This document shows positions 9,602 to 30,510 of a stretch of DNA of 56,960 bases, piece after piece; position 1 is the stretch's first letter, and every line of letters begins with the position of its first letter. This DNA comes from Seison nebaliae (Eukaryota > Rotifera > Pararotatoria > Seisonacea > Seisonidae). The stretch spans positions 1 through 56,960 of the forward strand of contig JALJEE010001010.1 in assembly GCA_023231475.1 (NCBI GenBank), written 5' to 3'. The notes below the pieces were generated by a model. The model was not told the origin of the DNA. It worked only from the letters and a program-made list of their open reading frames with translations, and searched no databases. Both the position numbers and the translations under genes were made by a program.

Positions 9602-10773
9602 TATTTCTCTCGGATGATCGGTTTCCAATACCCTTTTTTAAATTTCTTTACAACATTCTCTAAATTCCAAAATATTTATATTATTAATCAATTCTTTTCA
9701 AAATAATTTTGATCATTGTTTCATTTTAATAAAATTTTCCAAGAACTCCTTTCTTTACACTATCTAGTTCGAAATGATCTTTAGTAATAACTATTTGATA
9801 ATTACTCTAAAGTCTTTAGTCGTATTATAGAACGCTAACGTTCTGTCATGAGAATAAAAGAAAACGATAATTTTACAATACTTCTTATAACAAATAAAAT
9901 TCATTATCAATCATTGCCATTATAAAAGAATTGACACGAATAAAGTAAATAATAGAGTACAGTTCAATAATCATTTGACGTAAGAATTATTTTACAATAT
10001 AATATATAGAATAATACTATATAATTAAGTATAGGAATCAGTTAATTTCAAATTAGTAATTTGACCAAAGTCAATTTTGTTGTTATATAATTAATATTAG
10101 CTTATAATAATATAAAAAATAATTCAACAATTATTACCAATACCAAATGATTATTTAAAGGAGAGATTATTTAGACAAAGGAGAAATAGTTGTGAATGTG
10201 GATATTAGAAACAAGATTCTTATCGAAGTTTTTTATCGAAACTAATATTCTGTTCGATATGTTTGTAAGATTCTCTACAATTGTATAAAAGTTTATGTAT
10301 TCCTATTAATAATCGAATTTAAAGAATAATTATCATAATTATCGTTATCATAAGGTATATAATATATACTATTTTTATTCTATAGGTTATACTATACTAT
10401 ACCTTATCATATATGTGGAATTTGAAGCGAATAAATATTTGTTAATGTTTCTATATTGTCATTCTATTACTAGTCATTTTTCTTCATATAATTGAATATT
10501 ATATAATAAAATTGCTTTATATTCGATTGAAAACTTTGTTCCTCACATAATATATGAACCCATACTATTCTATTAGACATTTTCCATCAAAGAAACAATA
10601 ATGAATATAAAATCCGTTCCTAATGGAAACAATTTATCTTTTTGTTCTTTGAGAAACAGCTTAAATTTTAACAATTGCTTTGGAGTGACGACGGTCTCCA
10701 CACATATAAAGAGAACAAAAATTTTAGCTATGCCAAATGAAAACGATAATTAAATTGAGTTCCAGAATTTCCG
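9602..10773. other. intergenic AT-rich spacer
   Basis: About 1.2 kb of very AT-rich sequence, with many TATATA tracts and no gene. It includes a short inverted repeat: ATAAGGTAT at 10350-10358 pairs with ATACCTTAT at 10399-10407. Confidence 0.5.
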
Positions 10774-11988
10774 ATGTTTAATCTGAATCGCTACAGAACA
10801 ACGTTGCGTCTTCTCATATTTTTGCTCATTCTATGGATAGTTAAATCTTTTTCCAATTATATGACGTCCAATATTAATTTGAAAGAGACACAATATGACC
10901 AATTAATTTTAACTCCGGAACTAGTTGAGAAAAACGATCCTGAAACAACTAAAACACAACAAATATACATACCAAAAAAGAACCCAATTAAAACATCACG
11001 AATTCAAACGGAACCAGTTAAGTCCATAAATGAACAGCCGATTTATTTATTAAAATGGAAAAATATCAACTATTTCTCTATGCATATCATGAACCATTGT
11101 CCAGCTAAATGTCAAATAACAGAAGATGAAACTACTTTGGCAAAAAGTCATGCCGTTTTAATTTGGGGTTGGAATTTACCAGAAATACAGCTACCATCAC
11201 TCAGACCAGATCAGTTAATGATATTAATGGTCAACGAATCGCCCATTCAGACATATAGACATAATATACATTTCTCACCTCAGAAATACAACAACAAATT
11301 AAATATGACCGTGACATATCGTTTTGATTCGGACCAAAGAATATTCTCTCATTTATTAGAGAAGTTTCCAAAGAAAACGGAAATTAAGAAAAACTATTGG
11401 CGGAGTAAACAAAGAAACTTAACGGCAGTTATTATGGTGAGTAATTGCCGAGCTAAAGATAGAATGAAAATGGTAAGAACGTTACAAGATGCTGGTCTTA
11501 ATGTGGATGTTTATGGGAAATGTGGAAATAAATCTTGTGGGAAGAATAAAGAATGTTTTGAAATATTAAAAAAATATCATTTCTATTTGGCATTTGAAAA
11601 TTCTTTACATTGTCAAGATTATATAACAGAAAAATTTTGGAGGAATGCGATAGAAAATGAACTTGTTCCTATTGTGTATGGAGCAAGAAAGAAAAATTTC
11701 CAGCGACTAAATATTCCTGAATCAGCATTCATTCATATGGATGATTTTTCCAATATGAATCATCTGGTTTCTTTCGTGAAAAAAATAAAAAATAACGAAA
11801 AAATGTATAATAGCTTCCATGAATGGAGAATGGAATATAAACTCACCATCACTTACGCTCGATATTATTGTCAGTTGTGCGAAAAAATTCGGAAAAAGAT
11901 TTATGGAACTGAACTGGAGAGACGTCCAAGTTATTATTCTAATTTCTCCAGCTGGTGGAATTCTTGCGAGAATTTTTATGTTAAGTAA
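10774..11988 (+). CDS. alpha-1,3-fucosyltransferase (GT10), Golgi type II membrane protein
   Basis: Single-exon gene of 404 codons. It transfers fucose from GDP-fucose to N-acetylglucosamine of glycans in the Golgi lumen. A short cytoplasmic N-terminus is followed by one signal anchor (about residues 11-28, LRLLIFLLILWIVKSF) and then a stem. The N-terminal fold includes AVLIWGWNLPEI and MVNESPIQTYRHN. The diagnostic GT10 C-terminal motif is FYLAFENSLHCQDYITEKFW, followed by NELVPIVYGA and AFIHMDDFSN. Length fits the family (350-450). Whether it makes core alpha-1,3-fucose or Lewis-type linkages cannot be told from this sequence. The start is the first ATG before the anchor. Confidence 0.92.
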   Translation: MFNLNRYRTTLRLLIFLLILWIVKSFSNYMTSNINLKETQYDQLILTPELVEKNDPETTKTQQIYIPKKNPIKTSRIQTEPVKSINEQPIYLLKWKNINYFSMHIMNHCPAKCQITEDETTLAKSHAVLIWGWNLPEIQLPSLRPDQLMILMVNESPIQTYRHNIHFSPQKYNNKLNMTVTYRFDSDQRIFSHLLEKFPKKTEIKKNYWRSKQRNLTAVIMVSNCRAKDRMKMVRTLQDAGLNVDVYGKCGNKSCGKNKECFEILKKYHFYLAFENSLHCQDYITEKFWRNAIENELVPIVYGARKKNFQRLNIPESAFIHMDDFSNMNHLVSFVKKIKNNEKMYNSFHEWRMEYKLTITYARYYCQLCEKIRKKIYGTELERRPSYYSNFSSWWNSCENFYVK

Positions 11989-12494
11989 CTATCGCTTTTT
12001 CTTCATATTAATACCGTCCCCTCATTCAATAGAATGAATAATTTTTTACAATTCTTTATATCATTTTCTATCTTTAATTAATTAAAATATGATTTTCATT
12101 TAAATTAACAAATTCTCTAATCTACAAGTTCATTATTCAGATTTTTTCTAATTTATCCCGACTGGAATTTTGATAATAAATAATAATAATTCAATTAATT
12201 TCTGGAAATTTTCATTTCCTTTTAATTTCCACATAATCAATTTATAAATTCTAATTTATCAATAGAAGAATATAATAGAGAATTTCAATAATAAAATAAT
12301 GATAAATAATTTGTGAATAGAATTTTACTTCCGTCGTTATATGGTTTGAAAGTAAATTCGTAATTTGTCTTGTGGAAAGTTTAAATAGAATTCTATCCTT
12401 TTGAATTATAAGTTTACATTTATTGTTTGTGATGACGATTACAAATGAAATTTTAATCTGAAATAATTGACAGAAAAATTTGAACGAGAAGATA
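11989..12494. other. intergenic, no gene seen
   Basis: About 500 nt of AT-rich sequence between the fucosyltransferase and SEP15, with dense TAATAA runs and no coding signal. It should hold the SEP15 promoter and 5' UTR. Confidence 0.5.
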
Positions 12495-13070
12495 ATGAAT
12501 TTGGTTCATTTGGTTCTCAGTTTATTCTCTTTCCATTTCGTCGTTAAACAAGTTACCAATTTTATATATTAGGAAATTTTCCATATGTCTTTAGACTAAA
12601 GGTGATGACGAGAAGAAAGTGTCGAAAGATGAATGTCAGAAATTGGGATATAATCCACAAGTGTTATTGTGCAGTTCATGCGAATCTTTAGATAATTTCA
12701 ATTTGAGTGCACTTAAAAAGAATTGTTCACAATGTTGTTTGGACGATCAGGAGAATGAGAAAATTGTCAAAGCAACAAGAGCCGAATTAAAGGTATGTGG
12801 ATGAAAATTGGGACACTTCCCCCAAATCGAAGGTTTTTAATTTTATTTGAATTTTTCTTAAATAATTTAAATCTGTCATAAACAGCTTTCGCGAAAAAAG
12901 AAGATCATTTATCACGCTACTCAGGAATTGTCAGTGTACGATATATTCGTGGAATGATGCCCACACTTGACATGATTGGAAAGCAAGGGGAAGTGTTAGA
13001 GACATTGTCCATTATGAAATGGGATACCGATACAATTCACGATTTTCTTCAAGAACGACTTGTTTTATAA
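12495..13070 (+). CDS. SELENOF: selenoprotein F (SEP15) with selenocysteine codon UGA
   Basis: ER-resident thiol-disulfide oxidoreductase that binds UDP-glucose:glycoprotein glucosyltransferase and serves glycoprotein quality control. Three exons fit in phase: 12495-12551, 12595-12832 and 12886-13070. The introns are 43 and 53 nt. Exon 1 encodes a signal peptide (MNLVHLVLSLFSF...). The Cys-rich domain follows: DECQKLGYNPQVLLCSSCES, then NCSQCC. Next comes the redox motif C-G-U, where U is TGA at 12802-12804, continuing KLGHFPQIEAFAKKEDHLS and SVRYIRGMMPTL. The C-terminus, LSIMKWDTDTIHDFL, matches the thioredoxin-like domain. Homology resumes immediately after the TGA in the same frame, and a SECIS lies in the 3' UTR, so the TGA is selenocysteine and not a stop. 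Length (about 158-160) is usual for the family. Confidence 0.96.
12802..12804 (+). other. in-frame TGA decoded as selenocysteine
   Basis: TGA in the context C-G-TGA-K-L-G. Sep15 family members carry Sec at exactly this place in the C-G-U-K-L-G motif. Coding continues 9 codons to the splice donor, then through the next exon. Confidence 0.95.
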
Positions 13071-13130
13071 ATGTAAGACGATAGAGGACAATGTTGTTTA
13101 TTGAAGAATTGTTGTGAATTATTTCTCTTT

Positions 13131-13188
13131 TTAAAATGACGAAGAATAATAGAAAGCAATATGTTGCTATTATTCATCCGAAATTTAA
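13131..13188 (+). promoter_or_regulatory. SECIS element (type II-like) in the SEP15 3' UTR
   Basis: 61 nt after the stop codon. The core quartet strand ATGA at 13136-13139 faces CGAA at 13179-13182. The upper stem pairs GAAGAATAATAG (13141-13152) with CTATTATTCATC (13167-13178), 11 of 12 matched. An unpaired AAA sits at the apex, followed by a mini-hairpin GCAA-TATG-TTGC, which is the type II arrangement. Below the quartet TTAAA (13131-13135) pairs with TTTAA (13184-13188). All conserved SECIS parts (AUGA, apical AA, GA) are at the expected spacing. About 280 nt of mRNA separates it from the UGA. Confidence 0.93.
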
Positions 13189-13190
13189 TG

Positions 13191-13196
13191 AATAAA
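13191..13196 (+). terminator. polyadenylation signal of SEP15
   Basis: AATAAA a few nucleotides after the SECIS; a fitting 3' end for the SEP15 transcript. Confidence 0.6.
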
Positions 13197-13383
13197 AAAT
13201 ATTTGAAATAAATTTCAAGTGATTAAAAAGTGATTAAAAGTAGAAATAAATGATAGATTTAGTTTTAATGAGTTTTTTGATAATAATAAAAAATATTTCT
13301 TTTGAAAAAAGACAAAGAATGAAATGAAGAGGATTAAAAGTAGGAATAATCATGAAAAGATTGATCAATAAAAAAAAGTGGAA

Positions 13384-14495
13384 TTAACTGATAAGTCGTC
13401 TATATGAATTACTCAATTCAGATGATGTCTCACTAGTTAATGTAGCTGGATAGGAGTCGTGGAGAGTGTTCGAAGAGAGAATTGATGTCCAATGTGGATC
13501 GGTTGATTTCGGATAAAGAATTTCGATATCACTTAAAAATTGATTTTTTATAAATCCCCCACCAATATAAATTGCATCATCGATGGTACAAGCAGAAACG
13601 TTGGCACGACCTTTCTGTAAATCGGGACCATCGATCCATACTCCTTCGATCGGATCATAAATTTCAACACTATTCAACGATCCACTTCCATTACTACCTC
13701 CAATAATGTAAAATTTATCTTCGAAGACAACAGCTGCATGACCATGTCGTGGTTCTTTCATGGACCGAATAAATTTCCATTTCATTGATGATTCATTATC
13801 CATATCTAATTTTTCACATTTCGACATTGCAGAAGAATCTTTTCCTCCGAATACATAAAGTGAATTGTTGTGATAAAGAAGTGAATGACGACATCGTTGT
13901 CGATTCAACATTGGGAGATCCGTCCACAAATTCTCCGCTACATTAAAAGTTTGACATATTCGTAATGTTTCATTACCTCGTCGTCCACCAACTTGATAAA
14001 TGAGATTTGTTCCATTCGATACAGCCGCTGTATCCATAGGAGATGAATAAGATAATTGCTCCCATTTTGATTTAGCAACATCATATCTCTCCATTTTAGA
14101 CCATTCACGATGACCGTCCGTTCCTCCTAATACATAAATGAATGAATTAGTCGCATCTTTGATTAGGACGGCAGATCCGTTAGCTCGTGCACGAGCCATC
14201 GGTTGAATGAGTTGCCATTCATTCTGATTCTTATCATACATCTCTACAGATGAATGATAATGACCTCGATCATGTCCACCTAATACGATTGGTTGTCCAT
14301 TATGTATAATCATCGAATGACCCGAACGACCAACTGTCATATTAGCAATAGAGACATTATAACTATTGATGCCACTGGAGGAGGATGTGGATGAAAGTGA
14401 TTCATTTGATGATGATAAATATGATGGAGTTGAATCGATAATTGATGATCGATCTTGATTCTGAATATGATTATTTTGATTTTGTTTCATTATTA

Positions 14496-14526
<31 letters not shown>

Positions 14527-16598
14527 GTTATTATTAATATTATTGTTGTTGTTGTTGATATTGAATAAATCTTCTTCATTCATCTCATCATCAACATCAC
14601 TCATTCCATTAGTGGTATTCTCACAAACAATCGTCTCTTTAAATTTTCGATTTTTTGAATAAATACTTCCATCATTGTCGGTGAAGGAATGTGCACGATT
14701 CGTACGCAATTCACTGTAGAGGACGTCATTGGATAAAAAGATTTTCAAATCACTACGTCGACGATGTCGATGAAGTTTCGTGTCGATTTCATCTTCGAAG
14801 AAACTTCGTCGATATGATTCAACTAATCGAACGACACAAATAAAAAAAGTTGTTTTCTCTCTCTTCTCTTTGAGGATGGATAAGGTTGTATTCGATTCAC
14901 AAGGTGATAAACCATCATCGAAATCTCTCTCATCATAAATGTTCAACAAAGAAATTTTCTTATCGATATCTGATGTTTCCTCATCCTCATAATCGCCGTT
15001 GGAACTATCATCAACAAAATTGGATGATTCGTTCTCTTCACATTCAATTCCTTTCACTTCCAATAAAATATAATGATTATTACCTAGAATTAAATTAAAT
15101 TAAATTAGATATTATTAAATGATATTATGTGTATTTATTTAATAAATGAACCTTCGAATTGACTAGAAATCGCTTCAATTTTTATCGGACATTCATTTTC
15201 AGTATGATCACGTATCTTCTCATCTATTTGTTTCTCATCTTTCTTCAACGAATCATGAAGTCGTTCAATCCTCTGTTGATAATCCTTCAAATGACAATTC
15301 AAATAGAATGATATTATGATTGATAATAATAATCAATTTAACTTGTACGATATGAGAGAATAATGGATCTCTCTTTGGTAATTGAATACAATCACGTAAT
15401 TCCAATCGTTTATCCACGTACAACATGAACGGTTGCTATTGAGAAAAATATGATAAAATCAATATGAAAAATGAAATGAAAATTCAAAAAAGAGATGCAG
15501 CATACAATGAGGAGAAACATTCAAGAAATGGAAACAGATCAGAATTGCCATTACTAACGAAATGAGAGATCACATTCGAATAGATGGACGATGGCATATT
15601 GACCAATGACGATGACGAAGATGAAGATGATGATGCAGTTGTTGAAACGTGTAGACTGTTGGTGGATGAGGATGAATGATGACAATTAGTCTGCAATTTA
15701 TGATGGATCCATTTGACGCACATGCTGGTTAATGTTGAACGTTCGAATTGAATCGAATCATCTTTTGCTGTGATTAGTGGAAAGGAAAACAGAAAATAAT
15801 AATTTATAATAATAATTAATTACAGGATAATCATTGACATGTCCAAATGGAAACAAACCCAATAAATCAATTTCGATATGTGACAATCGGAACAAATCGC
15901 CATCCACTTGACAAACTTCACCGAAATTCTTCTGAATGAAATTGATGATGATATCATTATTGGTGTTGTTGGTGGAGAGTTGAGTGAGATAAGCTAAATT
16001 GGAGATGCATTTAAAAAATAATTGAAATATTTAAAAATTGTAAAACCGATGCAATTGGAAATGTTAATATGTTGGAGAAGGAGATCTTTGAACAACTCCA
16101 CCATTCCATCCATTTCAAACTCACAAGCGACGTCATATACATGTGGAATGTAAGACTTGTTCATGAGCAATCTGGAATAATGTGACAACACTCACGAAAG
16201 GAGACAAGTGACAACTTGTTCAGATAGATGCACTTGAGAATCGTCTTGAATGGTTTATAATATCTCTTCTTCAACGAAATATATAATGGCTCTCCATTCG
16301 ATATATGACGTTCTCGTTGATTATGATGAGGGAAATGAGAGTTTTTCAATTGTGTCTCCGATCGTTCATTCATAATATGATTGAAAAATGCTCTCGATTG
16401 ACAGATGAGAATAGATTTGTGACATCGAAGTGATTCGAATCCGAAATCAAGAACTAAATCATAGAATGATTTGTGATTATAGAGTGATGCCAATGTATCG
16501 TTATAAAACGATCGATCACTCATATATTTGGAGAGATCGTCCAACTGAATCTGATCATTCTGTTCACCGTGACTGCCCACTCCCAACGTTATCGTCAT
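13384..16598 (-). CDS. BTB-BACK-Kelch protein (possible IVNS1ABP-like)
   Basis: Minus-strand multi-exon gene. From the ATG at 16598 the first exon gives a BTB domain (YNHKSFYDLVLDFGFESLRC, HKSILICQSRAFFNHIM). The next exon completes it (HVYDVACEFEMDGMVELFKD). Exons near 15.97-15.86, 15.77-15.5, 15.44-15.35 and 15.29-15.15 kb supply a BACK domain (NFGEVCQVDGDLFRLSHIEI; TSMCVKWIHHK) and a coiled stretch. The last exon (about 15086-13384) holds a long acidic, Asn- and Ser-rich disordered linker, then six Kelch blades with GG doublets and Y/W spacing (IYVLGGTDG, LYVFGGKD, FYIIGGSNG). Such proteins are usually CUL3 adaptors. The BTB-BACK-long linker-Kelch order resembles IVNS1ABP, but that assignment is tentative. 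The exact junction between 15.5 and 15.44 kb is unresolved. Confidence 0.85.
14490..14560 (-). repeat. trinucleotide repeat encoding poly-Asn
   Basis: Run of ATT/GTT units (AAT/AAC on the coding strand) inside the Kelch gene linker. It encodes about 20 Asn with one or two Ile breaks; likely length-polymorphic. Confidence 0.85.
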
Positions 16599-18743: not shown

Positions 18744-20171
18744 ATGTTGAATAAAATCTTACGTAGTCGTGCAAGTCAATTGACGAGAACTTTCACTAGA
18801 CAATTGACATCGGATGTGAAGGTGGAGAAAGATATATGTAAATCTTCTATTTCTGCTGCTTATCCACCAACCGAAGTCTCTCAATTGGAAAATGGATTGA
18901 GAGTTGCATCAGAAGATTATGGAACTCCAACATGTACTGTGGGAGTATGGATAGATGCTGGTAGTCGATTCGAAACTGAACAGAATAATGGAACTGCACA
19001 TTTCCTAGAACATATGGCATTCAAAGGAACACACAAACGGAATCAAGTTCAATTAGAATTAGAGATTGAAAATATGGGTGCTCATCTCAACGCATATACA
19101 TCACGAGAACAAACCGTTTATTATGCCAAATCATTCTCATCCGATATGAATCGATCTGTTGAGATTTTGGCTGATATTCTTAAAAATTCCAAATTAGGCG
19201 AAGCAGAAATTGAACGAGAACGTGGAGTGATTCTGAGAGAAATGCAAGAAGTTGAGACGAATTTACAAGAAGTAGTTTTTGATCATCTTCACGCAACCGC
19301 TTTCCAAGGAACACCATTAGGTCGTACGATTTTAGGTCCAACGGAAAATATTCAATCAATCTCTCGACAAGATTTACAGAAATATATCAATACACATTAT
19401 AAAGCTCCAAGAATCGTATTAGCAGCAGCTGGTGGTTGTAATCATAATGAATTGGTCAAATTGGCGGAACAACATTTGGGATCGTTACCATGGAAATATG
19501 ATAATGAATTAATTCCCGAAATTCCCAAATGTCGATACACTGGAGGTGATATTCGAGTACGAGATGATTCTTTATCTTTAGCTCATATCGCCATTGCTGT
19601 AGAAGGTAGTAGTTGGTCGGATGCCGATACAATTCCATTAATGGTTGCCAATACCATCATTGGATCATGGGATCGTTCGATGGGCAGTGGAGGAAATGTT
19701 GCTTCAAAATTAGGACGATTAGCTCATGAACATAATTTAGTACATTCGTTCCAAGCGTTCAATACCTGTTATACCGATACGGGATTATGGGGATGTTATT
19801 TTGTCACCGATCGAAATAATATCGATGATTTTGTCATAGTTCTATTGAAAGAATGGATGAGATTATGTAATTCAGTGACAGAAGGAGAAGTTGAACGAGC
19901 GAAAAATTTGTTGAAGACGCATATGCTCCTCCAATTAGATGGAACGACTGCCATTTGTGAAGATATCGGTCGACAACTTCTTTGTTATGGACGACGAGTA
20001 CCATTGCATGAATTAGAACGACGAATTGATGCGGTTGATATGAATGTGGTGAAAGCAGTGTGTAATAAATATATTTATGATAAATGTCCAGCGGTGGCTG
20101 GTGTTGGTCCCATTGAACAATTGATTGATTATAACCGAATTCGTGCTGGTATGTATTGGATGAGAGTGTAG
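18744..20171 (+). CDS. PMPCB: mitochondrial processing peptidase beta subunit
   Basis: Single-exon gene, 475 residues, the usual length. It is the catalytic subunit of the matrix peptidase that removes presequences from imported precursors. The N-terminus is Arg/Ser/Thr-rich without acids ([20 protein letters not shown]), a mitochondrial targeting signal. The M16 zinc site is inverted HxxEH at residues 86-90 (HFLEH) in [15 protein letters not shown]. The distal Glu ligand is E166, 76 residues later, in GVILREMQE. The C-terminal half contains ALNL-equivalent and [11 protein letters not shown] segments typical of the beta subunit. BOLA1 follows on the same strand about 255 nt downstream. The many open frames on the other strand are shadows. 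Confidence 0.97.
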
Positions 20172-27073: not shown

Positions 27074-28414
27074 ATGATCCCAATGGATATACAAATTTAT
27101 AAAACATCTTTAATGTCTGAAAGGTGGACAATTTTGAACAAATTACGGCATATTTCAAATTATGATCTTTATGATAGAAATTTAGCAGTTTGTAGTACTA
27201 ATTTTTTACTGGGTATGATAATGTCAACCACAATATTAATTGATATCATTCAATGTAAACATAAACGTCTTGAGGAGAATTTTAATGAAGAAATGCATTT
27301 TCTTAGGAATAGTATCAGAAGACGTAAAATAGAATTAAAACAATTGGATATTTGTATATCTGACGTTCAAATGACTGATATCAGTTTGTCCAACGAGAAT
27401 AAAACATATACGAATGATTATGGACTTATTGGAGATTATTGTACTACACAAGCTTTTAAGAAATATGATACAGACAAACATTTGAACGAACATCAGTCAC
27501 AAGCACATTATATACCTTCACAAATACGATTTCATGTTGTATTGAAGGATTTATTTGCATTGAACTATCGCTTAGGAGTTTCATTTCATTGTCGATATAT
27601 TTACTATGATGCTATTAAGCTGTTAAATTTAGAAGTATTTCCGAAAAATATTAGATACAATAGTTTTGAACCGAAACTATTTTCATTCTTTTATGCGACT
27701 GATATTGGGGAGGATGTGATGGAAGAAGTTTCCAAAAAATTATTTAATGACGGAATTCTTCCACAGTTTATCCACTTTTCAATTAAACAGAAACCTAATT
27801 TAAGAATTCATCCGCATACATTTACGTTATTAGCTGACGTTATGGAAAAAGTAAAGCGAAAGAACATACACCATAAACCAATTTCCAACTTGAGTCTTTT
27901 CATTTATCGCGTTCTATTCACGGTTCCTAAAATAGATCAACATCAACGAATTATTTTATTTAAGATAGGAAACAAAAAAGTACCTTATCGGTTGATAGCA
28001 TTTTCTATTCTTATGATAAAAGAGGTTAAGATAAGAATGAATAAGATTGACAAGGTATATGAAGATATACCGGAATTACATGACTGTATCAACAAATTTA
28101 TTAAAAGATCTAATGATGCTGTGAGAAATAAAACTGTTGAACTTAGAAAAATTATTTCACCATACATTACTAATCATACAGTTCTATTTCGGTCGGTATG
28201 TAATGAAATTATGCGAAGAAGAACACTATATGATATGGTAGTTAAAGCACGTGAAAAGCATACTTTCTCACTTACTCTAATTAACGATAGTTGGTTTATG
28301 ATGAATGATGAATATACTTTTAAAATAATGGATATAGAAACTTTTACTAAAATGTTGGCAAATGAAAATGTTGATGGAATCTTACTTCATAAGGTTGAGA
28401 TACCTTTCGAATAG
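27074..28414 (+). CDS. USP-like cysteine protease homologue, tandem copy 1
   Basis: Single-exon gene of 446 codons. By comparison with copy 2 the true start is probably the second ATG, at MDIQIYKTSL. No family is obvious overall, but both ends look like a ubiquitin-specific protease (C19). The N-terminal box VCSTNFLLGMIMSTTILIDI places C-x-x-N-x-x-L as in the USP Cys box. The C-terminal box EKHTFSLTLINDSWFMMND, followed by NVDGILLHK, resembles the USP His box with Trp, Asp and the closing strand. Candidate catalytic residues are C40, H396 and D412. The C-x-x-C zinc finger of many USPs is not seen. No signal peptide. Inference only. Confidence 0.5.
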   Translation: MIPMDIQIYKTSLMSERWTILNKLRHISNYDLYDRNLAVCSTNFLLGMIMSTTILIDIIQCKHKRLEENFNEEMHFLRNSIRRRKIELKQLDICISDVQMTDISLSNENKTYTNDYGLIGDYCTTQAFKKYDTDKHLNEHQSQAHYIPSQIRFHVVLKDLFALNYRLGVSFHCRYIYYDAIKLLNLEVFPKNIRYNSFEPKLFSFFYATDIGEDVMEEVSKKLFNDGILPQFIHFSIKQKPNLRIHPHTFTLLADVMEKVKRKNIHHKPISNLSLFIYRVLFTVPKIDQHQRIILFKIGNKKVPYRLIAFSILMIKEVKIRMNKIDKVYEDIPELHDCINKFIKRSNDAVRNKTVELRKIISPYITNHTVLFRSVCNEIMRRRTLYDMVVKAREKHTFSLTLINDSWFMMNDEYTFKIMDIETFTKMLANENVDGILLHKVEIPFE

Positions 28415-29058: not shown

Positions 29059-30510
29059 ATGGATATTCAAAGTTATAAAACTTCTTTAATGGATAAAAGA
29101 CGGACGATTTTGAACCAATTAGCTAATAATTCAAGCAACAAAGTCGCCGGTTATCATAATGACAGGTTTTTAGGGGTTTGTGGAACTAATGTTCTATTGG
29201 GTATGATAATGTCAAGCAGAATTTTAATGAATATAATAGAATGCAAACATGAATGTTGCGAAGAACATTTTTATAGAGAAATGGATACTGTTAAGAATTA
29301 TATCCGAGGGCGTAAAATTGAATTACGACAATTTGATATTTGCCCATCTGATGTGTTGATAATGGGTATCAGTTCAACTTACAATAATAAAACATATAAA
29401 AGTGACTACGGAGTTGTTGGAGATTATTGTATTACACAAGCTTTTAAGAACCATGATATTAATAAGCCTTTGAATGAGGATGGAACTTACGATATAATTA
29501 AGAAACAGCTTACTATAAAAAAAGAATCACAAATACGATTTCATGTTTTACTAAAGGATTTATTTTCATTGAAATCGCGTGAAGGTACATCTTTTAATTT
29601 TAGGTACTCTTATTATGATAAAATCAAAGCATTAAATTTGGAAGTAGTTTCAAAAAACGTTATCTATGATATCTTTGAACCGAAACCATTTTCATTCTTT
29701 TATGCAGCTGATATTGGAGAGGATGTTATAGAAGATATTGCTAAAAAATTATATGATGATAAAATTTTTCCGAAACTAATTCATTTTTCAATTAAGCAAA
29801 AACCTAACTTAAGAATTCATCCTCATACTTTTAGTTTAATAGCTGAATTAATCGAAGAAGCGATTAGGAAGGACATCGTCCATAACTTAATCCCTAATTT
29901 TAGTTTGTTTATTTATCGAGTTTTGTTTACAGTGCCTAGGATACACAGTGCTCGACAGATTTATTTTTTTAAGGTTGGAAATAAAGAAGTACCTTATCAG
30001 TTGATAGCACTTTCTATTAGAATGATGAAAGAAGTTGAGGTAAAAATGAACGACATTTATAAGACATATGAAGATAGACCGGAATTACATGAGTGTATTA
30101 ACAAGTTTATTGAAAGGTCTAATGATGCTACGAGGAATAAAACTAATTATTATAAACAAATAATTTCATCGTACATTACTAATCATACAATTCTGTTCCG
30201 TTCAGTATGCAATGAAGTTCGACAAGGAAGAACACTATATGATATGGTAGTTAAAGCTCGTGGAATGCATACTTTCTCACTCAGTCTCGTTGAAGGGAGT
30301 TGGTTTCTGATGAATGATCAATTTTCTTTTAAAATAATGGATATAGAAACATTTACGGAAATGTTGGCTAATGAAAATGTCGATGGCATCTTATTCGAAA
30401 AGATCGACGATTCTTCGAAATGGGATGCTAAGTTGCAACGTCGTCTAATCGAAGGCGACAACCATTTTAAAATCAATTCCAAGAGAAACTATAAATTTAA
30501 CCTTTCTTAA
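29059..30510 (+). CDS. USP-like cysteine protease homologue, tandem copy 2
   Basis: Single-exon gene of 483 codons, paralogous to the preceding gene along its full length (same order of blocks, roughly 60% identical by eye). It has a longer C-terminal tail of about 30 residues. The Cys box is GVCGTNVLLGMIMSSRILMN (C41). The His box is MHTFSLSLVEGSWFLMNDQF (H404, N419/D420), then ENVDGILFEKI. Shared central blocks include PKPFSFFYAADIGEDVIEDI, IHFSIKQKPNLRIHPHTF and LFIYRVLFTVP. The two copies keep the same residues in both boxes although the rest has diverged, which argues that the boxes are functional. Cytoplasmic deubiquitinase-like activity is inferred, not shown. Confidence 0.5.
   Translation: MDIQSYKTSLMDKRRTILNQLANNSSNKVAGYHNDRFLGVCGTNVLLGMIMSSRILMNIIECKHECCEEHFYREMDTVKNYIRGRKIELRQFDICPSDVLIMGISSTYNNKTYKSDYGVVGDYCITQAFKNHDINKPLNEDGTYDIIKKQLTIKKESQIRFHVLLKDLFSLKSREGTSFNFRYSYYDKIKALNLEVVSKNVIYDIFEPKPFSFFYAADIGEDVIEDIAKKLYDDKIFPKLIHFSIKQKPNLRIHPHTFSLIAELIEEAIRKDIVHNLIPNFSLFIYRVLFTVPRIHSARQIYFFKVGNKEVPYQLIALSIRMMKEVEVKMNDIYKTYEDRPELHECINKFIERSNDATRNKTNYYKQIISSYITNHTILFRSVCNEVRQGRTLYDMVVKARGMHTFSLSLVEGSWFLMNDQFSFKIMDIETFTEMLANENVDGILFEKIDDSSKWDAKLQRRLIEGDNHFKINSKRNYKFNLS

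Follow-up and report, generated by a model that had tools for sequence, protein, structure and literature searches.

Is the TGA that interrupts a selenoprotein F (SELENOF, Sep15) reading frame in Seison nebaliae decoded as selenocysteine (Sec), or does it end the protein, and what does the answer say about Sec use in this species? In animal selenoproteins, SBP2 bound to the SECIS recruits eEFSec, together with Sec-tRNA(Sec), to ribosomes that have reached the UGA codon. SELENOF itself has been proposed, in other animals, to be an endoplasmic reticulum (ER) redox partner in the quality control of glycoprotein folding. The locus lies on a single contig (C567) that was analyzed over its whole length of 56,960 nucleotides, referred to below as the window. 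A first-pass annotation of this DNA had described a complete SELENOF gene in which homology resumes beyond a C-G-TGA-K-L-G motif, followed by a SECIS element and a poly(A) signal, and had concluded that the species retains Sec decoding.

Anatomy and homology of the SELENOF gene

The gene occupies positions 12495-13070 of the + strand and consists of 3 exons (Table 1), with a spliced frame of 480 nt in which the TGA is the sole internal stop. The codons around it read K-V-C-G-TGA-K-L-G-H-F-P-Q (C-G-TGA, 12796-12804). When Sec is written as C, the read-through protein matches the Pfam family PF08806 (Sep15_SelM) over residues 83-157 (3.2e-22; 78.8 bits, cut-off 26), and the match spans the TGA, which corresponds to residue 89. 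It also matches a Sep15 chain of known structure, 2a4h (4e-14), the single solved chain that the sequence search returned. The completeness of the gene and the continuation of homology past the TGA are thereby borne out. At the DNA level, the profile search of the assembly contigs recovered PF08806 in exon 3 (12903-13061, 9.9e-12), and the SELENOF locus is the only PF08806 match in the assembly.

Table 1. Features of the SELENOF locus (positions in the window)
Feature	Position	Strand	Details	Basis
SELENOF exon 1	12495..12551	+	ATG at 12495; hydrophobic start, signal-peptide-like by eye	sequence, frame
Intron 1	12552..12594	+	43 nt, GT-AG	inferred from frame
SELENOF exon 2	12595..12832	+	Cys-rich stretch and C-G-U redox motif (VCG-TGA-KLGHFPQIE)	sequence, frame
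In-frame TGA	12802..12804	+	selenocysteine position of the family	frame and homology
Intron 2	12833..12885	+	53 nt, GT-AG, weak donor GTTTTT	inferred from frame and homology
SELENOF exon 3	12886..13070	+	remainder of the Sep15/SelM domain; TAA 13068-13070	PF08806 match, frame
SECIS-like hairpin	13131..13187	+	AUGA 13136-13139 and GA 13180-13181; stem II of 11 pairs; AA(A) at the apex; mini-stem of 4 bp	
AATAAA poly(A) signal	13191..13196	+	second: 13207-13212	sequence

The Seison gene shares with SELENOF of other animals the Sep15/SelM redox domain, the C-x-U motif with UGA and, within its 3′ UTR, a SECIS-like element, and may share the Cys-rich N-terminal domain, but differs in having very short introns. 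The stretch LCSSCESLDNFNLSALKKNCSQCC resembles by eye what we take to be the Cys-rich N-terminal (UGGT-binding) domain; Pfam listed PF08806 alone for the protein. The redox site distinguishes the gene from 2 known relatives. The fly Sep15 of chain 2a4h has Cys at the site, within C-T-C, whereas the Seison gene has C-G-U. The PF08806 domain is common to SELENOF and SELENOM, but SELENOM has a C-x-x-U motif rather than C-G-U and is not known to have the Cys-rich domain.

A full-length query against protein databases returned no protein at E-values up to 1e-3 (9 candidates); this search depends on shared 5-residue words, and the 88-residue product that ends at the TGA would be borderline for its length filter. 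The gene seems to be absent from the protein databases, though the eEFSec protein of S. nebaliae is present there. The SELENOF gene is genuine and looks intact, its limits were drawn correctly, and it is of an ordinary kind.

Several other genes were observed in the window. A fucosyltransferase (PF00852) is encoded in a single frame on the + strand (10759-11988), about 500 bases upstream of SELENOF, and a gene with Kelch repeats and a long run of asparagines lies on the - strand (13384-15099), converging on SELENOF and ending about 170 bases away from the poly(A) signals of the latter. Positions 18744-20171 encode the beta subunit of the mitochondrial processing peptidase. Two adjacent single-frame genes on the + strand, 27074-28411 and 29059-30507, are paralogues with 282 identical residues in 450 positions, and Pfam gave no match for the former at 1e-3.

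A SECIS-like element in the 3′ UTR

The hairpin following the SELENOF frame displays the features of the mini-stem type of eukaryotic SECIS, which we take to be form 2, namely, an AUGA/GA quartet, a stem II of 11 pairs, an unpaired apical AA and a mini-stem of 4 bp. Its AUGA starts 65 nt past the TAA; the distance of 61 nt reported in the first-pass annotation fits a count to the base of helix I. In the energy-minimal fold the mini-stem is AGCA/UGUU; a second possible mini-stem, GCAA/UUGC, competes with the uppermost stem-II pair.

A plain arm-pairing scan of both strands of the window ranked this hairpin first (23.5, next 20.0). It was also the most stable (-10.8 kcal/mol, next -7.3) of the 14 matches in 113,920 nt in a folding scan that strictly required 10 or more stem-II pairs within no more than 55 nt. 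First-order resamples totaling 5.70 Mb, searched on one strand, contained 19 matches at -10.8 or lower, that is, 3.3 per Mb, which translates into about 0.0004 such elements expected by chance in a 3′ UTR of 120 nt. Only 2 of 200 shuffles of the isolated 57-nt element fold equally well. The 79-nt stretch around the hairpin is not unusual in its fold, which was equalled in 11 of 200 shuffles, and a more permissive scan, with candidates ranked only by energy, placed the hairpin 7th of 133.

Unlike known eukaryotic SECIS elements, the SELENOF element is not recognized by Rfam families. No family was reported over the window at the gathering score, and a search of positions 12400-13300 with E-values up to 10 yielded 6 matches, none of them to a SECIS family. 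These 6 weak matches, the best of which was to cow-rumen-3 (22.2 bits versus a gathering score of 86.7), were taken as chance. The predicted element is nevertheless in the right place, and an element like it would be rare by chance. The AATAAA signal reported in the first-pass annotation is present, in 2 copies; as the window contains 2.4 copies of this motif per kb, it is weak evidence alone.

Selenocysteine machinery and further selenoprotein genes

The haploid genome of S. nebaliae measures about 46 Mb, and the published assembly GA2 comprises 43.9 Mb in 3,301 contigs with a GC content of 31.9% (PMC8351084). The assembly searched here, with 846 contigs that total 36,032,870 bases, corresponds to about four fifths of this ~46-Mb genome, and its contig count differs from those of both published assemblies. 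It was searched with the profiles PF08806, RF01852, PF05889, TIGR00476, PF00115, PF21208, PF08433, PF01248, PF00255, PF10262, PF02852 and TIGR03575. The COX1 profile (PF00115) had zero matches in it.

Five of the 6 core Sec factors sought, tRNA-Sec, SepSecS, SPS2, eEFSec and SBP2, are present. The tRNA-Sec gene (L002:1501-1586) scored 68.5 bits (cut-off 47; next locus 46.3) and is called by ARAGORN as tRNA-SeC with anticodon TCA. SepSecS was found on contig C168 in 5 pieces, which together span positions 1-313 of the 389 in the model. SPS2 (selD, 231.9 bits) carries an internal TGA of its own, in LKG-U-GCKVPQ. The eEFSec frame (L016) includes both eukaryotic C-terminal domains, PF21208 and PF21131, over the cut-off, and its best solved chain is 5izk (1.5e-92). 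It is identical at 583 of 584 aligned residues to the S. nebaliae protein SNEBB_005315 from NCBI, relative to which it has an insertion of 15 residues, apparently an unspliced intron of 45 nt; identities to the remaining 119 proteins listed are 34-39%. SBP2 is one of 7 matches to the L7Ae family in the assembly. After removal of an apparent in-frame intron, the best solved chain for the SBP2 fragment is 7zjw_B (SBP2, 8.2e-12), with L7Ae proteins next (3.3e-7), whereas in the unspliced fragment L7Ae proteins outscore SBP2.

Of the machinery that the first-pass annotation had proposed to look for, tRNA-Sec, SBP2, eEFSec and SPS2 were thus recovered, with SepSecS in addition, and the kinase PSTK was not found in 36.0 of about 46 Mb by profile searches with PF08433 and TIGR03575. 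One strong PF08433 match, on contig C736, was rejected as PSTK, since a full-length match to the KTI12 profile and the solved relative 6qp0 identify it as KTI12; 6qp0, the only solved relative of this protein, is titled "Putative chromatin binding protein" and is presumably Kti12. The TIGR03575 profile matched the KTI12 locus (0.001) and another locus (0.17), neither over the cut-off. It is improbable that S. nebaliae makes selenocysteine in the absence of a recognizable PSTK, with the kinase step performed by a strongly diverged or unrelated enzyme. A PSTK gene located in the remaining part of the genome, or split by introns below the sensitivity of the search, is much likelier.

Further genes in the assembly have a TGA at the Sec site of their families. 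Glutathione peroxidase (GPx) has it in VASK-U-GLT and thioredoxin reductase (TrxR) in a C-terminal GGC-U-G-stop (GCUG end); the latter protein is matched by TIGR01438 through the last position of the profile, and its best solved relatives are thioredoxin reductase 1 chains. No GCUG end was present in the stretches viewed of 2 further PF02852 genes (C637 and C693). SELENOW, named by eye, has the TGA in GG-U-GYYG, and SELENOT, also assigned by eye, in SS-U-GYKQVF, its profile match being limited to the C-terminal part. Two loci of related families were observed in addition: a second GPx-like locus (L026, C787:46091-46261), which by eye seems to have Cys at the Sec position and whose matched stretch holds 2 stops, pointing to introns or decay, and a third locus of the Rdx family (L029, C322:77509-77670), an exon with no identified redox-motif exon.

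SECIS-like elements lying at most 140 nt from the stop accompany SPS2 (10 pairs, -5.3 kcal/mol) and TrxR (11 pairs, -11.9 kcal/mol), as they do SELENOF (11 pairs, -10.8 kcal/mol). The SECIS candidates of GPx (9 pairs, at an uncertain distance from its stop), SELENOW (8 pairs) and SELENOT (11 pairs, only -2.6 kcal/mol) are weak and may be due to chance. As isolated elements, those of TrxR, SPS2 and GPx were folded as well by 7, 14 and 32 of 200 shuffles, respectively. Collectively, the Sec factors and the genes with UGA at Sec sites support the conclusion, already drawn in the first-pass annotation, that S. nebaliae keeps Sec decoding, as judged from its genome sequence.

Reading of the TGA and phylogenetic context

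We consider it highly probable that the locus is a functional nuclear SELENOF gene of S. nebaliae in which UGA is recoded as selenocysteine. Were the TGA instead a plain stop, or the gene decaying, the product would have 88 residues and no redox domain. The failure to find PSTK in the searched assembly and that of Rfam to recognize the SECIS would fit such an outcome, but both homology and the open frame run for 62 codons beyond the TGA, up to the TAA, and Sec use is indicated by the Sec factors found and by UGA codons at Sec sites in other genes; we regard a plain stop or decay as very improbable. Splicing could also bypass the codon. A strong-looking donor, AAG|GTATGT, is found on the + strand within 12787-12800, with its GT at 12793, directly 5′ of the Cys-Gly-Sec codons, and looks nearer to the usual donor consensus than the GTTTTT of intron 2. 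If the main mRNA joined this donor to the acceptor at 12885, the Sec motif would be skipped, the protein truncated and the UGA never decoded. Exon 3 would, however, be read in a frame that closes after about 24 codons (12871-12957), with loss of the conserved domain, and the codons for K-V-C-G can mimic a donor by chance, which leaves such an mRNA with hardly any probability as the main product.

Alternatively, the contig could come from a contaminant, for example the crustacean host. Seison has marine crustaceans (Nebalia) as hosts, and pooled specimens are described as the source of the published DNA (PMC8351084). None of the proteins encoded on the contig was linked to a named protein of Seison, and no close named relative was seen for the mitochondrial processing peptidase subunit, whose highest identity among the 119 other proteins listed, 76%, is to an unnamed one. 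Against a foreign source, the GC content of the window, which belongs to the same assembly, is about 30%, compared with the 31.9% published for GA2 (PMC8351084). The two SELENOF introns (43 and 53 nt) are similar to the apparent intron of 45 nt in eEFSec, and genes are densely packed on the contig; contamination is accordingly given next to no weight.

With a Seison SELENOF gene whose UGA is recoded as the preferred reading, the mRNA would be spliced from the 3 exons, and SBP2 bound to the SECIS in its 3′ UTR would allow eEFSec and Sec-tRNA(Sec) to recode the UGA at 12802. The resulting protein of 159 residues would enter the ER. There, its putative Cys-rich domain and the thioredoxin-like domain with C-G-U may act in the quality control of glycoprotein folding.

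The first-pass annotation had placed the gene against the background of selenoprotein loss in ecdysozoans. That framing is wrong, since Seison is a rotifer (Gnathifera, Spiralia). Several orders of insects, plant-parasitic nematodes and 2 astigmatan mites are reported to have lost Sec, the mites, Dermatophagoides farinae and Sarcoptes scabiei, being described as devoid of selenoproteins and Sec factors (PMC5330540), whereas the centipede Strigamia is reported to keep 20 selenoproteins (PMC4244043). Sec use is the default state in animals, and with losses reported in certain lineages and 20 selenoproteins retained in Strigamia, retention in a rotifer is the default expectation. For rotifers, a survey of GPx reports GPx4-type enzymes (PMC8614756), and a study of Brachionus mentions a selenium-binding protein (PMC3253786). 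No word starting with "selen" occurs in the main text of the papers on the Seison genome (PMC8351084), syndermatan gene loss (PMC12256650) or the Pomphorhynchus genome (PMC7310846), and no title on a rotifer selenoproteome was found among open-licence papers. The SELENOF gene is a new member of a known family, and we found no report of a selenoprotein from S. nebaliae.

About 40% of the metazoan core genes are reported to be missing from the lineage of Seison, said to be the highest loss among the animals studied (PMC12256650). The apparent persistence of Sec use in such a strongly gene-reduced lineage is mildly notable. Seison emerges as an epizoic rotifer with predicted Sec decoding and at least 5 genes with UGA at the Sec site of their family, and would provide a test point for the question of whether endoparasitic acanthocephalans keep this trait.
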